From positions 1 to 64,000 of the IMG/VR virus record IMGVR_UViG_3300005529_000033: a DNA stretch of 64,000 nucleotides, one strand, 5' to 3'. Under the pieces are notes generated by a model, which had not been told where the DNA came from, did no database searches, and saw only the letters and a list, made by a program, of their open reading frames with translations. Position numbers and translations under genes: made by a program. Below, piece by piece: positions 56,316-64,000 of this stretch; positions within the stretch are counted from its first letter, which is position 1; every line of letters starts with the position of its first letter. The DNA is from a virus.

Positions 56316-57084
56316 CGACAGCCAGCAGTTACCGGCCAGCCGGCGGCGCCGCCGCGCCGCCACGGCAGAAGACGAGTACGACCACGACGCCAGGGAGGAA
56401 CGCTCCTCGCGCCGAAGCCGCGGCAGCAGGCCCGCGCCTTCCTCCGGCGGACGCGGCTGGGCATCTCACCGCAAGAACGAAGCCCGCACCCGCCGCGGCT
56501 TCGGCGCCAGCCCTGATGAGTTCCGCGTCGACGCCGAAGACGTCACCTACCTCGTCAAGCCGTTAGAACACGAGCCGTTCTGGTCCTACTGCGAGCACTA
56601 CGTCGACGAGATCGAGGAAGGCAAGCGGTCCTTCACCTGCGGCGACGACACATGCCCCCTGTGCGACCTCGGCCACAACCCCCGCGCCTTCGACCTGTTC
56701 AACGTCGCCGTCTGGGACCCCGCCGGGAACGGCGGCGAAGGCACCTGGACCCCCAAGTACTGGCGTGCCACCCCGGACCCGGCCGGGAAGATCCTGTCCC
56801 GCTCCGAGGAACTCGGCACCGGCCGCAACCCCAAGGGCCTCGGCGACGACGACGTGTACCTCGCCGTCTCCAAGTCCAAGAGCAGGAAGAAGAAAGGCGG
56901 CCGGGCCTTCAACGAATTCACCATCGACCTGGTGAAAGCCCGCGACCTCGAAGAAGACCACGACGCCTGGCCCCTGGACGACGCCGACCTCGACGAGCTG
57001 AAGGAACGGCTGTTCGACGAGACCGTCGCCCCCGAGGCCTCCCTCAAGGAACTCCGCGACGCCGCCAGCGCCCTCGATGACTAA
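56254..57084 (+). CDS. ssDNA-binding-like protein with zinc site
   Basis: A 276-residue protein starting at ATG 56254 after GGAAGGGA. Residues 1-80 are basic and disordered (ASRRRRRAATAEDEYDH); 80-240 form a compact beta-rich domain with FTCGDDTCPLCDLGH, a Cys/His set resembling the zinc site of gp32-like single-strand binding proteins; the C-terminal 40 residues are acidic. An acidic tail, basic arm and position in the replication operon support ssDNA binding. Direct evidence for the OB-fold is not visible, so this is moderate. Confidence 0.55.
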   Translation: MPQVTRRRPAERSAGYGEAADDSQQLPASRRRRRAATAEDEYDHDAREERSSRRSRGSRPAPSSGGRGWASHRKNEARTRRGFGASPDEFRVDAEDVTYLVKPLEHEPFWSYCEHYVDEIEEGKRSFTCGDDTCPLCDLGHNPRAFDLFNVAVWDPAGNGGEGTWTPKYWRATPDPAGKILSRSEELGTGRNPKGLGDDDVYLAVSKSKSRKKKGGRAFNEFTIDLVKARDLEEDHDAWPLDDADLDELKERLFDETVAPEASLKELRDAASALDD

Positions 57085-57109
57085 CCCGGCACACACAGGA
57101 GACCGCGAC

Positions 57110-57742
57110 ATGACCGACGCCAGCTACCGCCACATCATCTTCATCATCGACCGATCCGGCAGCATCCAGTCCGTCTTACCGGACATGCAGGGCGGCTACG
57201 AGCAGTTCGTCAAGGAGCAGGCCGCCGTAGAGGGCATCAGCACCTCGGCATCGCTCTACCAGTTCGATACCGAGCACGAGAACCTTTTCTCCTTCCAGGC
57301 ACTGCACCATCTCAAGGCGTACAAGATCGTCCCCCGCGGCGGCACGGCGCTGCTGGACGCCATCGGCTACGCGCTGGTCACCGAGGGCGGCAAGCTCGCC
57401 GCGCTCCGGGAGGAAAACCGCCCCGGCAAGGTCATCGTCCTGATCTGCACCGACGGCGAGGAAAACTCCTCCAGGAAGTACACCAAAGCCCAGGTCAAAG
57501 CCATGATCTCCGAGCAGCAGGACACGTACGGCTGGACGTTCATCTACAACGGCGCCAACCAGGATGCCTTCGCCGAAGCCGGCGCCATGGGCATCGCCAC
57601 CTGCAGCACCATGGGCTACGCGGCGACCCCGCAGGGCACCGCCGGCAGCTGGGCATCAGCATCGGCGATGGTGACCCGCGGGGCCGCCAGCGGCACCTAC
57701 GCCTACACCGGGAACGAGCGCAAGGCAGCCTCCGGTGACTAG
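57110..57742 (+). CDS. von Willebrand factor A domain protein
   Basis: A 210-residue single-domain vWA protein. ATG 57110 is chosen because AGGAGA lies nine bases upstream; ATG 57077 overlapping the previous gene is the alternative. The metal-ion-dependent adhesion site is intact: IIDRSGSI (DxSxS), GGTALLDAIGY (Thr) and CTDGEEN (Asp). A C-terminal Gly/Ala-rich part (GAASGTYAYTGNERKAASGD) follows. Such proteins bind Mg and partner proteins; in replication operons they often accompany ATPases, none of which is adjacent here. Confidence 0.8.
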   Translation: MTDASYRHIIFIIDRSGSIQSVLPDMQGGYEQFVKEQAAVEGISTSASLYQFDTEHENLFSFQALHHLKAYKIVPRGGTALLDAIGYALVTEGGKLAALREENRPGKVIVLICTDGEENSSRKYTKAQVKAMISEQQDTYGWTFIYNGANQDAFAEAGAMGIATCSTMGYAATPQGTAGSWASASAMVTRGAASGTYAYTGNERKAASGD

Positions 57743-58252: not shown

Positions 58253-58324
58253 CCGCAAGCCCCGGGTGCAGGGAGACCGGTGAACCCTCTCCCTGCACCC
58301 GGCCACCATGAAAGGACACCAGCC

Positions 58325-58606
58325 ATGGTCAGGCGCGGTGCCAGCAGCAAGTCCACCTGCCGGGTAATCCCCGGTGACTGCCTGAAAATACTCCGGGACT
58401 TACCGGAAGATTATTTTGATGCAAGCGTGACTGACCCGCCGTATGACTTGACAGCCGGTAAGAAAGGCGGCACCGTGCTGGACCTGTTCGCGGGCACCGG
58501 CACCACCGGCCAGGCGTGCCTGGCCGAGGGCTTCAGCAGCGTCCTGATCGAACGAGACCCGGTAGCCCTGGAACTCATCCGCGTCCGCATCCCGGACCAC
58601 CAGTGA
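58325..58606 (+). CDS. Internally collapsed DNA methyltransferase
   Basis: A 93-residue protein starting at ATG 58325 after AAAGGA. It contains CRVIPGDCLKILRDLPEDYF and DASVTDPPYDLT, the start of a beta-class amino-methyltransferase with catalytic DPPY, and then joins directly to GTVLDLFAGTGTTGQACLAE and VLIERDPVALELIRVRI, the S-adenosylmethionine-binding half. In full-length relatives these parts are separated by about 100-200 residues that hold the target recognition region. The join (TAGKKGG) is in frame. It is probably inactive for sequence-specific methylation, unless it recruits a partner. Overlaps the polymerase start by GTGA. Confidence 0.7.
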   Translation: MVRRGASSKSTCRVIPGDCLKILRDLPEDYFDASVTDPPYDLTAGKKGGTVLDLFAGTGTTGQACLAEGFSSVLIERDPVALELIRVRIPDHQ

Positions 58607-60579
58607 GCCGCTACATCATCACCGGCAAGGACGACCTGGCCGACGCCGTGAGCATCCTGGCGCAGCGTGACGCGTTCGTGTTCGACATCGAGGCCCAGGG
58701 CGAGCACCGCGGCGTCCCCCATATATGTGACGTCACCTGGATATCGTTAGCGTCGGACGGGATCACCTGCACGATCCCGATGGGCCACCCCATCGGCAGC
58801 CGGCAGTCCGGCACCCGCATCGAACCGCGGATGTGCGCGGACGGGAAGATCCGCAACTACAAGAAGCCCGTCTGGGAACCCCCGCCCCCGCAGCTGGAAC
58901 GCAGCTATGTCTTCGAGCAGCTGCGCCCCTTGTTCCTCAACGACCGGCAGGTCAAGGTCTGCGCTGACCAGACCGTCGACTCGGTGGCCGTCACCCAGTA
59001 TCTCGGCGAGGTCCCCTGGCCCCCGTATGACTGCGTGATCACCATGGACTGGCTGCTGGACGAGAACCGCCTCCAGCACGGCGTCAAGCCCCAGGTCCGC
59101 GACTACTTCGGCTACGACTACGACACCGAGAACACCGGCCGCGAAGTAGAAAAGCACCCCTTCGGCAAGGTCGGCCACTACTCGGCCATGGACGCCCAGT
59201 ACGAGTGGCTCCTGTACAAGCGGCACCGGGCACTGCTCGAGGCCGACCCGGACCTGGCCGGGGCCTGGCAGCTGGAACGGGACCTGATGTCCGTCCTGAT
59301 CGGCATGCGGCTGGCCGGCGCCGACGTCGACGAGGACCTCGCCCGCCGCCACGAGCAGGCCCTGTCCGTCCGCGTCGAGCAGCACAAGGCCGCCATCTAC
59401 CGGGCCGCCGGCCGCGAGTTCTGCCTCAACTCCAACCCGCAGAAACAGGAAATCCTCTACTCCCCCCGGGCCCAGGGCGGCCAGGGGCTCAAGCCGTGGA
59501 AGCTCACCGACGGCGGGCAGAAACGCGCCGCCCGCGGCGCCGCCCTGACCATCGCCGACTACTCCACCGATGATGACGTTCTCCAGTCCTACCCGGACAA
59601 CCCCGTCTGCACCGCCCTGCGTGACTACGGCGACGCCGCCAAGCTCCTGTCCACCTACATCCAGTCCTGGCTCGGCACCGGGGACAAGCTCCCCATGATC
59701 CACGACGGGCGCCTGCACACCTGGCTGAAAGGCTACGGGACAGTCACGGGACGCCTTTCTTCCTCCAAGCCCAACCTGCAGAACATCCCCCGGCCCGACA
59801 CCGAAGACGGCAGGCTCCTGCGGTCCGTGTTCACCGCACCGCCCGGCCACAGGCTCATCGTCGCCGACTACGGCCAGATCGAGCTTGTCGTGATCGCGCA
59901 TTTCATCGGCCACGGCGGCTTGTACGACGCGTTCCTCAACGGCGAGGACCCGCACCGCAAGACCGCCGCGGAAATGTTCCGCTGCAGCGTCGAGGATGTC
60001 ACTCCGCGGCAAAGGCAGATCTGCAAGACATCGAATTTCCTCATCTCCTACGGCGGCGGCTGGAAAACCCTCATGATCTCCGCCAACAAATACCTCCCGG
60101 ACGACCAGAAAATCACCGCGGCCACCGCGAGAGAAGTCATGGACATCTACGCGGACACCTATCCCGAGGTGGAAGACTTCCGGTCGCTTGTCATGGACGC
60201 CGCCCGCCGCCGCAAGCCCCCCTACATCCGCACCCTGATCGGCCGCAAGCGCCGCATGCCCAAGCTCAACGCCCGCGACCCCAAGGTACGCGCCGGCGCC
60301 GAGCGCGCCCTGTTCTCCGCCCTCATCCAGGGATCCGCCGCGGACCTGATGAAAATGTCCCTGATCCGCGCCGACCAGATGCTCGCCGAGCAGCTCCCGG
60401 ACGCCTGCGTCATCTTGACAATCCACGACGAGATCGTCGCGGTCGCCCCCGAAGACCAGGCGGGGAAAGCACAGGACATCATCACCGAGGCAATGACCGG
60501 ACCGGGCATCCAGAAACTCATCCGGGTCCCGCTGAAGATCGACATCAAGGCCGTGAGCCACTGGGCGGACGCGAAGTAA
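58603..60579 (+). CDS. Family A DNA polymerase (Pol I-like)
   Basis: A 658-residue polymerase starting at GTG 58603. The N-terminal 3'-5' exonuclease is intact in pattern: FDIEAQG, CADQTVDSVAVTQYLG and HYSAMDAQYEW (Tyr-x3-Asp). Polymerase motifs are TVTGRLSSSKPNLQNIP, motif A IVADYGQIELVVIAH, motif B RQICKTSNFLISYGGG and motif C LTIHDEIV. There is no 5'-nuclease domain, as usual for phage polymerases. Motif A has Gly in place of Ser in DYSQIE. It would carry out phage replication with the helicase and primase upstream. Confidence 0.92.
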   Translation: MSRYIITGKDDLADAVSILAQRDAFVFDIEAQGEHRGVPHICDVTWISLASDGITCTIPMGHPIGSRQSGTRIEPRMCADGKIRNYKKPVWEPPPPQLERSYVFEQLRPLFLNDRQVKVCADQTVDSVAVTQYLGEVPWPPYDCVITMDWLLDENRLQHGVKPQVRDYFGYDYDTENTGREVEKHPFGKVGHYSAMDAQYEWLLYKRHRALLEADPDLAGAWQLERDLMSVLIGMRLAGADVDEDLARRHEQALSVRVEQHKAAIYRAAGREFCLNSNPQKQEILYSPRAQGGQGLKPWKLTDGGQKRAARGAALTIADYSTDDDVLQSYPDNPVCTALRDYGDAAKLLSTYIQSWLGTGDKLPMIHDGRLHTWLKGYGTVTGRLSSSKPNLQNIPRPDTEDGRLLRSVFTAPPGHRLIVADYGQIELVVIAHFIGHGGLYDAFLNGEDPHRKTAAEMFRCSVEDVTPRQRQICKTSNFLISYGGGWKTLMISANKYLPDDQKITAATAREVMDIYADTYPEVEDFRSLVMDAARRRKPPYIRTLIGRKRRMPKLNARDPKVRAGAERALFSALIQGSAADLMKMSLIRADQMLAEQLPDACVILTIHDEIVAVAPEDQAGKAQDIITEAMTGPGIQKLIRVPLKIDIKAVSHWADAK

Positions 60580-61577: not shown

Positions 61578-61793
61578 ATGCTGAACCCCGAGCGTTTATC
61601 CCGCTACGTCGCGCCAGGCGGAACCCGGTCCGGCCAGTTAGGCTACATCACGCCCGCCCAGGCCCGCCGCATGCGGCACAAGCAGTTCTCCCGCAAGACC
61701 CACCAGCACATCCGCGGTGAGATCCCCGCCTGCCCCCGGTGCAAGCCCGGCTGGACGCCCGCCCGGCTGCGCCGCCTGGAGCAGCAGGCATGA
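61578..61793 (+). CDS. Small basic CxxC protein
   Basis: A 71-residue very basic protein (RRMRHKQFSRKTHQHIRGEI) with CPRC near the end and an Arg-rich C-terminus. It likely binds nucleic acid or zinc. Stop overlaps the next ATG. Confidence 0.55.
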   Translation: MLNPERLSRYVAPGGTRSGQLGYITPAQARRMRHKQFSRKTHQHIRGEIPACPRCKPGWTPARLRRLEQQA

Positions 61794-61942
61794 GGGCCCG
61801 CCCGTTCCTGGCCCGGCACTGGGCGGACATCTTGTTCGCCGCCGCCATCGCCTACACAGCCTCAGCCAGCGCCTATGCCGTGTTCTTCGTGCATCCGCCC
61901 GCTCCGGCAGTCATCATCCGCTCATGCGGGAGCACCCCGTGA
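61790..61942 (+). CDS. Tiny single-span membrane protein
   Basis: A 50-residue protein with one membrane helix (WADILFAAAIAYTASASAYA) and a short tail. Start overlaps the previous stop and its own stop overlaps the RecA GTG, so it is coupled in the operon. Small toxic or holin-like phage peptides have such layout; function unknown. Confidence 0.45.
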   Translation: MRARPFLARHWADILFAAAIAYTASASAYAVFFVHPPAPAVIIRSCGSTP

Positions 61943-63066
61943 CCGCCGACGCGCTGCGGCTGCTGTCCGGCTCAGCAAGATCCGGCTCTTTCATCCTGGC
62001 CTCCCAGATCGTCATGCCCCGCCGGTACACCTCCGGCTCGCTCACCCTGGACGTCGTGCTCGGCGGCGGCTGGCCCGGCAACCAGTGGTCCGAGGTCATC
62101 GGCCCGGAATCCTCCGGCAAGACCTCCACCGTCCTGAAGACCGTCGCCGCCAACCAGCGCGCCGACCCCGGCTTCGCCACCTTCTGGGTCGGCGCCGAGG
62201 CCTTCGAGCCGGAATGGGCCGCCCGGCTCGGCGTCGACCTCGGACGCGTCGTCGTCACCACCGAGCGGTCCATGGAAACCGTCCTGGACATGGTGCTCGT
62301 CGCCGCCCGCGAGCGTATTTTCGACATGATCGTCGTCGACTCCTATCCTGCCCTCATCCCCGCCGACGAGATGGAAGAGGAAAGCATCGGCGACGCCCAC
62401 GTCGCCTCCGGCGCCCGCATCTTCAACAAGTTCTGGCGGCGCGCCGGCGAGGCGGGGGGCCGCGCGTTCGACGGCACCGAACGGCCGTTCTTCGGCATCT
62501 TCATGAACCAGTGGCGCGATAAAGTCGGCGTCTGGTCCCCGCAGGGCACGCCCAGGACCACGCTCGGGGGACACGGGAAAGACTACGCGTTCTACGTCCG
62601 CCTCGACGTCGCCCGCACCGGGTGGGTCACCGAGAGCTGGGCCGGCCACGACAAGCCCGTCAAAGTCGCCCAGCAGATCTCCTACAAGACGATCAAGAAC
62701 AAGTCCGCGTCCCCGCAGGCCTCCGGCACCGTCGACTTCTACGTCCGCGACGCCCGCAACGGCATCCGCCAGGGCGACTACGACACCGCCGCCGACTACG
62801 CCGAGATGGCCGTCTTATTCGGCGTCGCCGTCAAATCCGGCGGCTGGTACGCATTCGGCGGCCAGAAATGGCAGGGCAAGCCCCGGTTCAAGGACGCCCT
62901 GCGCGAGGACAAGGGGCTGCAGGAAGCCGTCGCCGCCGAAGTCCTCAAGCTCACCGCCGATCCCTCCCGCATACCCGCGAACGCCTACGTCACCGACCCC
63001 GACGAGGACGCCATCACCGCCCCCCCGCGGCACGTCCGCAGGCAGGCGCAGAACTCCCGCCCCTGA
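61939..63066 (+). CDS. RecA-like recombinase
   Basis: A 375-residue RecA. GTG 61939 overlaps the upstream stop and has GGGAG six bases before; ATG 61924 is an alternative. The core reads SGSLTLDVVLGGGWPGNQWS, Walker A VIGPESSGKTSTVLK, Walker B DMIVVDSYPALIPADEME and the DNA-binding loop region after FFGIFMNQWRDK. It ends in a basic tail. It would promote phage recombination and could activate LexA-type self-cleavage, relevant to the S24 proteins in the lysogeny island. Confidence 0.9.
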   Translation: MTADALRLLSGSARSGSFILASQIVMPRRYTSGSLTLDVVLGGGWPGNQWSEVIGPESSGKTSTVLKTVAANQRADPGFATFWVGAEAFEPEWAARLGVDLGRVVVTTERSMETVLDMVLVAARERIFDMIVVDSYPALIPADEMEEESIGDAHVASGARIFNKFWRRAGEAGGRAFDGTERPFFGIFMNQWRDKVGVWSPQGTPRTTLGGHGKDYAFYVRLDVARTGWVTESWAGHDKPVKVAQQISYKTIKNKSASPQASGTVDFYVRDARNGIRQGDYDTAADYAEMAVLFGVAVKSGGWYAFGGQKWQGKPRFKDALREDKGLQEAVAAEVLKLTADPSRIPANAYVTDPDEDAITAPPRHVRRQAQNSRP

Positions 63067-63080
63067 AAAGGAAAAACATC

Positions 63081-63359
63081 ATGGGATATTACATCCAGGC
63101 ACCATCTGCCCACGGCAAGGCGGAATACCTGGCAGCCGAGCACGCCGCGGACATACTCGGCGTACCGCCTGCCTCCTACGCGGCAATCCCGGAGGACAAG
63201 GCACTCATCGCGGTCGTGGACAACGGCCTGTTCGAAGCCGCCGCCTACGTGCACAGCGAACCTGAATTCACGGCATTCAGCAGGTTAGATGACCCGCGCC
63301 CGCGCACCTGGCTGCTGATGGACAAGACCACCGCCCAGCGCCTCAGCAACTACCCGTGA
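63081..63359 (+). CDS. Small hypothetical protein
   Basis: A 92-residue protein starting at ATG 63081 after AAAAGGAAAA. Helical N-terminal half (AEYLAAEHAADILGVPPASY) and a strand-rich C-terminal half (ALIAVVDNGLFEAAAYVHSE). No family recognised. It lies between RecA and the proteasome-like gene. Confidence 0.5.
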   Translation: MGYYIQAPSAHGKAEYLAAEHAADILGVPPASYAAIPEDKALIAVVDNGLFEAAAYVHSEPEFTAFSRLDDPRPRTWLLMDKTTAQRLSNYP

Positions 63360-63384
63360 CACCCGCCGCGAACCGGAGAAACCC

Positions 63385-64000
63385 ATGAGCCTCATCATCT
63401 CCCTGACCACCCTCGACAACGTGATCATGGGCGCGGACAGCGGCACCTACGACCTCGACAGCGGCATCAGGGAACCCTCCGGCGCCCCGAAGATTTTCCG
63501 CCAGTCCGTCACCCGGGAAGAAGAGGGCGCATCCCTGCACTTCCTGGTCGGCTGCACCGGATCCACCCGGCAGCGGGAAGTCCTCCAGCACGCGTTCAGG
63601 CCGCCGAACCCGTACACCCGGGAGAACTTCGATCTCACGAGATACATGGTGGTGCACTACGCCGGCGACGTGCGCAGCTACCTCGACGACCACAACGCGC
63701 TGGGAGATGAGCACCCCCTTGAAGGGTCCGCGATCATCGCCGTCTACGGCACCGGCAAGTGGAACAGCGCCCCCCGCGTCTATGAACTGCAATCCGACCT
63801 GGGCCTGAGCCAGCCGGACAGCGACTGGAACGCCACCGGGGCCGGCTACCAGGTCGCGCTCGGCGCCGTGACGGCCCTGGACCTGCACGGCTGGACCAAG
63901 AGCGACCCCGAGGGCACCATCCGTGCCGTCCTGGGCATCGCCGGGCGGTACTCCCTGTTCTGCCACGAGCCGTACCACACCGCCCGGCTCATCGAGGACT
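63385..64000 (+). CDS. Proteasome/HslV-like N-terminal nucleophile hydrolase, 3' end outside window
   Basis: At least 205 residues from ATG 63385 after GGAGAA; the frame is still open at the window end. The start MSLIISLTTLDNVIMGADSG parallels HslV and proteasome beta subunits: after Met removal Ser2 would be the N-terminal nucleophile, Asp18 falls at mature position 17 as in HslV, and Lys36 in PKIF matches the catalytic Lys33 region. FLVGCTGSTRQRE corresponds to the GFAG loop and ATGAGYQVALGAVTAL to the conserved GSGGPYA-type helix. Whether it assembles rings or digests proteins is unknown; no HslU-type ATPase is visible. Confidence 0.62.
   Translation, partial: MSLIISLTTLDNVIMGADSGTYDLDSGIREPSGAPKIFRQSVTREEEGASLHFLVGCTGSTRQREVLQHAFRPPNPYTRENFDLTRYMVVHYAGDVRSYLDDHNALGDEHPLEGSAIIAVYGTGKWNSAPRVYELQSDLGLSQPDSDWNATGAGYQVALGAVTALDLHGWTKSDPEGTIRAVLGIAGRYSLFCHEPYHTARLIED

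Follow-up and report, generated by a model that had tools for sequence, protein, structure and literature searches.

A proteasome-like Ntn hydrolase with a predicted serine nucleophile in the replication and recombination operon of a probable actinobacterial phage

The DNA analysed here (the window) comprises bases 1-64,000 of a 70,435-bp viral record, and at its end lies a gene for a proteasome-like Ntn hydrolase (63385-64000, plus strand), identified by its open reading frame (ORF), a match to PHROG 1040, an AF2 model and structural matches. The reading frame starts with the ATG at 63385 and specifies a product of 205 residues. Its last sense codon ends at 63999 and the stop codon occupies 64000-64002 of the contig; the window end falls 2 bases short of the end of this stop codon, and the frame could be completed past it because the contig runs to 70,435 bp. 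A Shine-Dalgarno-like GGAGA, read directly from the DNA, is located 5 nt ahead of the ATG (63375-63379, plus strand). The GC content at codon positions 1, 2 and 3 of the plus-strand frame is 0.63, 0.46 and 0.92, which is a coding-like pattern, and a long antisense ORF opposite the gene lacks comparable codon-position support.

The hydrolase gene is part of a tightly packed, same-strand series that runs from a family A DNA polymerase gene through several small ORFs, RecA, a 92-residue ORF, the hydrolase, a resolvase and WhiB to an exonuclease. Specifically, the plus strand encodes PolA at 58516-60579 (PF00476, E=8.3e-87) and a RecA/UvsX-like recombinase at 61717-63066 (PF00154, E=1.9e-35), the best match of which is in Streptomyces phage BRock (45%). 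Since the RecA homology begins near residue 92 of the longest ORF, the true RecA start is probably further downstream. The 92-residue ORF (63081-63359, plus strand), which matches no family, precedes the hydrolase in the same operon. Beyond the window, the plus strand of the contig continues with a Holliday-junction resolvase family match (64006-64398), a WhiB protein (64398-64808) and an exonuclease family match (PHROG 2506, from 64792 on). The replication operon setting proposed in a sequence-only reading of this DNA is thus borne out by the same-strand PolA, RecA, resolvase and exonuclease genes around the hydrolase. That reading had also put the gene beside RecA; the RecA end at 63066 is indeed near, but the 92-residue ORF lies in between. 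Taken together, the RecA similarity and the presence of WhiB suggest an actinobacterial host, and the phage probably infects an actinobacterium. In other phages, the family gene adjoins ThyX, DHFR-thymidylate synthase or RNase H, or sits near PhoH. These varied neighbours indicate that the link to the nucleotide and replication phase is recurrent but not uniform.

Several other reading frames of this region deserve mention in their own right. A 108-residue ORF at 58280-58606 of the window matches a DNA methyltransferase (PHROG 67, 8e-22) and joins the motif-IV end (DPPY) to the FxGxG end with the middle absent; it resembles a methyltransferase that has been split or has lost its interior. In the replication region, 57077-57742 of the window encodes a PHROG 7371 protein (5.8e-50) that is VWA-like by eye and carries a DRSGS motif. 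The exonuclease ORF (contig 64792-66078; L002 4793-6079) is covered by PHROG 2506 over residues 42-288 of 428, and its Pro/Arg/Gly-rich tail overlaps another ORF (L002 5700-6215) by 380 bases. Probably, one of the two frames is noncoding there, or there is a frameshift. At the contig end, an endolysin-type protein (PHROG 291; L002 9481-10434) is truncated, and its frame opens with a non-homologous stretch.

The 205-residue protein matched PHROG 1040 ('peptidase HslV family') at E=3.9e-6, a family that was also matched by all 68 members of the alignment of relatives, and the 'Ntn_hydrolase-like protein' of Psychrobacter phage D'Alembert matched the single sequence at 4e-7. From the single sequence, there was no relevant Pfam or NCBIfam family (none at E<=1 for NCBIfam), PF00227 was not triggered, and phmmer against the PDB returned chance matches only. 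A profile of 106 relatives from which this protein had been left out scored it at 83.9 bits, whereas none of 2000 shuffles scored above 4.9 bits. The family resemblance is far above chance. Searched against the PDB, the family profile had its best matches in HslV (5.8e-12) and BPH (1.2e-11).

To assess the fold, an AF2 model was built with the alignment of relatives (68 sequences); it reached a pLDDT of 95.1 and a pTM of 0.91. The model has the proteasome beta-type fold with helices H1-H4 present, including helices at residues 61-69 and 84-102 and strands at 37-44 and 49-57. Foldseek against the PDB returned HslV, BPH and 20S beta subunits with E-values from 1e-9 to 1e-7 (HslV 2.2e-9). Over 167-182 aligned residues, VIA-align scored HslV, BPH, Anbu and 20S beta chains at Z 18-19, with 19.1 for Staphylococcus aureus HslV, 19.2 for BPH with epoxomicin and 18.6 for Anbu. 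In the superposition, residue 2 of the model falls on mature residue 1 of BPH and HslV. Among viral models, an uncultured phage supplied the best match, annotated 'HslV ATP-dependent protease HslVU, peptidase subunit', and there were further matches to two proteins of Gordonia phages. The predicted structure is therefore the Ntn sandwich that had been proposed from the letters of the DNA. The protein is a divergent, phage-branch proteasome-like Ntn hydrolase of PHROG 1040.

The proteasome catalytic set consists of Thr1 or Ser1, Asp17, Lys33 and the oxyanion glycine Gly47 (PMC8665760). The motifs quoted in the sequence-only reading were all found at the residues it gave, with GCTGST at residues 56-61, GAGYQVALGA at 152-161 and Lys36 inside PKIF. 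Aligned with the proteasome set, Ser2 (63388-63390) is the predicted N-terminal nucleophile after Met removal, Asp18 (63436-63438) corresponds to Asp17, Lys36 (63490-63492) to Lys33 and Gly56 (63550-63552) to the oxyanion-hole glycine Gly47, all on the plus strand; the predicted HslV/proteasome-type catalytic set of Ser2, Asp18 and Lys36 is thus supported. In HslV and proteasomes, the serine of a G-S-G motif neighbours the nucleophile. An alignment with Thermotoga maritima HslV places Ala153 (63841-63843, plus strand), within G-A-G, at the position of this serine. Position 153 varies among the relatives, with Cys in 45, Ser in 35, Thr in 19 and Ala in 3. Two insertions set the protein apart from most relatives: about 10 residues in the S3-S4 hairpin (residues 40-49; 63502-63531, plus strand), and about 8 residues (123-130) just before residue 131. 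The S3-S4 hairpin is also the site of the connectase insertion (PMC8665760).

Conservation was examined across the 106 relatives, a non-redundant set from phage records and viral contigs. Asp18 and Gly56, which were absent from the seed patterns of our scans, are invariant in 106/106. Lys36 is equally invariant and position 2 is Thr in every relative, as opposed to Ser in this protein, but the IMG/VR scans were partly seeded on Met-Thr-starting peptides, and one scan on a peptide ending in Lys-Val-Phe, so that the count for Thr2 is biased and that for Lys36 is affected somewhat less. The expectation that Ser2, Asp18 and Lys36 would be conserved among homologues thus held for Asp18 and Lys36, while position 2 carries Thr, an accepted alternative nucleophile. 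In the MAFFT alignment, the hairpin insertion causes Lys36 to be misplaced; alignments in local-pair mode position it correctly.

The relatives themselves were numerous. A tblastn search with the Psychrobacter phage protein led to 177 phage records, T5-like, Vibrio, Geobacillus, Tenacibaculum and jumbo phages among them, and one with the protein of actinophage DSL-LC01 led to Arthrobacter and Microbacterium phages, where the annotation reads 'protease'. Two scans of IMG/VR returned 244 and 90 related stretches; the 244 stretches represent a large MTTI[VA]AVQG proteasome-like family in viral contigs that is related to the DSL-LC01 protein. Four phage records, G017, G018, G029 and G034, each encode a strong AAA_2 (ClpX/HslU-class) protein in addition to the proteasome-like one, with a long distance between the two genes. 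A bacterial genome collection scanned with the actinophage-type profile and the same patterns yielded 0 relatives, and a direct search of viral contigs found no close relatives of the hydrolase. The search seeded with RecA gave 3 relatives, none with a hydrolase gene within reach, and that seeded with PolA gave none. In the tree, the protein falls on the MTCI side on a very long branch (3.5), which makes its position unsure.

Many phages have previously been found to carry proteasome-like genes. A survey by Fuchs, Alva and Lupas (2021) reported the phage proteasome homologs PPH, AAH (the alpha-proteobacterial and actinobacterial homolog) and CPH, and its authors regarded PPH as the first true member from viruses (PMC8665760). 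The sequence-only reading had considered a phage protease of this kind unusual, a view that does not hold, since such homologs are common in phages and form a family already in the literature. PPH and AAH resemble our protein in that they are compact group I proteasome-like proteins in Caudoviricetes without an AAA+ partner gene. The protein does not fit PPH, which is shorter, at about 140 residues, and is devoid of helix H2 (PMC8665760), as opposed to the 205 residues and the model helices at 61-69 and 84-102 here. The PHROG 1040 proteins of isolated phages (Psychrobacter phage D'Alembert DAL_45, Geobacillus virus E3 gp65 and Salmonella phage S124 gp067) have the same fold and length class, share Asp18, Lys36 and Gly56, and often lie beside nucleotide or replication genes. 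Our protein shares about 26% identity with them at best and differs by its Ser2 instead of Thr2, its Ala153 and its longer S3-S4 hairpin. The actinophage proteins (the 'ATP-dependent protease subunit' of DSL-LC01, Arthrobacter phage Hum25 gp81 and Microbacterium phage Pumpernickel gp135) belong to the same family, but occupy other tree branches and keep Thr2.

Outside the phages, bacterial HslV (ClpQ) has the Ntn fold and the catalytic residues in common with the hydrolase, and Bacillus subtilis CodW shares its serine nucleophile. HslV proper was rejected because an NCBIfam HslV match was absent and HslU was not found on the possibly incomplete contig. Most 20S beta subunits bear an N-terminal propeptide; a 20S beta subunit was rejected because the ORF with the Shine-Dalgarno-like site opens directly at Met-Ser. 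The BPH of Thiobacillus denitrificans (5ovs/5ovt) superposes with a Z-score of 19 over 172 residues at 20-21% identity, and no dedicated unfoldase is known for it, as we propose for the hydrolase. BPH itself has Thr1 and a demonstrated heptameric double ring, whereas the phage hydrolase is known here from its sequence and model. A defence-system reading was dropped since PADLOC gave no match, and JSS1_004, from an mBio paper, concerns a kinase and was not relevant.

Most likely, the gene encodes a co-expressed peptidase of the replication and recombination operon. We consider it likely that the protein is a compact proteasome-like Ntn hydrolase that cuts unfolded proteins in the replication phase with no unfoldase supplied by the phage. 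Removal of Met before Ser is expected from aminopeptidase specificity, and a host methionine aminopeptidase would expose Ser2 in this way. The Ser2 hydroxyl would then attack peptide bonds with its own alpha-amine as the base, while Asp18 and Lys36 would tune Ser2 and Gly56 would hold the oxyanion. The subunit may assemble into a small ring or another oligomer, and its targets would be unfolded, loosely folded or adaptor-delivered host or phage proteins, degraded in the replication phase independently of an unfoldase. Our literature search found no biochemical activity or function for any phage member. Counting against this explanation are two active-site departures from most of the family, namely Ser2 for Thr2 and Ala153 for Cys, Ser or Thr.

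An ATP-dependent protease, in which host unfoldases such as ClpX, HslU or Mpa/ARC would feed a ring in the manner of HslU and HslV, is unlikely in our estimation, even though HslV is among the closest fold relatives and actinobacteria possess AAA+ unfoldases. A profile search of the 70-kb contig gave no AAA_2 or AAA match, and the adjacent ATPase that had been looked for downstream of 64000 is not there, the resolvase, WhiB and exonuclease genes being found instead; because the contig may be incomplete, an unfoldase gene could lie elsewhere. The 50 related records hold only 4 strong AAA_2 proteins, each more than 20 kb from the peptidase gene, and thus no consistent or adjacent AAA_2 gene. The earlier suggestion of Mpa/ARC as a possible partner fares no better, since such ATPases bind 20S proteasomes through the alpha ring, and a PF00227 search of the possibly incomplete contig turned up no gene for an alpha subunit, although the PF00227 model also misses the hydrolase itself. 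Furthermore, the 2021 survey saw no AAA+ partner gene occurring together with the new homologs, and its Table 1 does not list HslV for Actinobacteria (PMC8665760). HslU as the partner is not supported.

Equally doubtful is a specific peptidase or ligase acting on one partner in the manner of connectase rather than as a general degradative compartment. The extra hairpin residues lie where connectase has its active-site cover, the second insertion, before residue 131, also counts in favour, and rings are not constant across the proteasome-like family, but the hairpin insertion is much shorter than the two-helix cover, and connectase lacks the first helix pair, which the model has. The serine nucleophile, a second shell relaxed at Ala153 and the longer hairpin could also be taken together as marks of a dedicated replication/recombination processing enzyme instead of a general degradative chamber; to this we give quite a low probability. 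Least of all do we expect a descendant with weak or lost catalysis that has been retained as a scaffold or decoy. The Ser2 and Ala153 departures and the very long tree branch would fit such a protein, but Asp18, Lys36 and Gly56 are retained, and a serine nucleophile functions in CodW as well as in other Ntn hydrolases. For CodW, the N-terminal serine nucleophile is given in the title of Kang et al. (2003), a paper cited in PMC5506225.

To the known phage genes, the present analysis adds a divergent member that has a predicted serine nucleophile, Ala153 and a hairpin insertion, and whose host is probably an actinobacterium. The 2021 survey reported no Actinobacteria-specific phage with AAH (PMC8665760). 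Together with the proteins of DSL-LC01, Hum25 and Pumpernickel, the hydrolase indicates that proteasome-like genes, whether AAH or not, occur in actinobacterial phages, its own host being probable. Phage proteasome homologs are widespread, and the hydrolase described here is a rare member with a predicted serine nucleophile in a readable replication and recombination operon, which makes it a modest extension of the family rather than a new kind of system.
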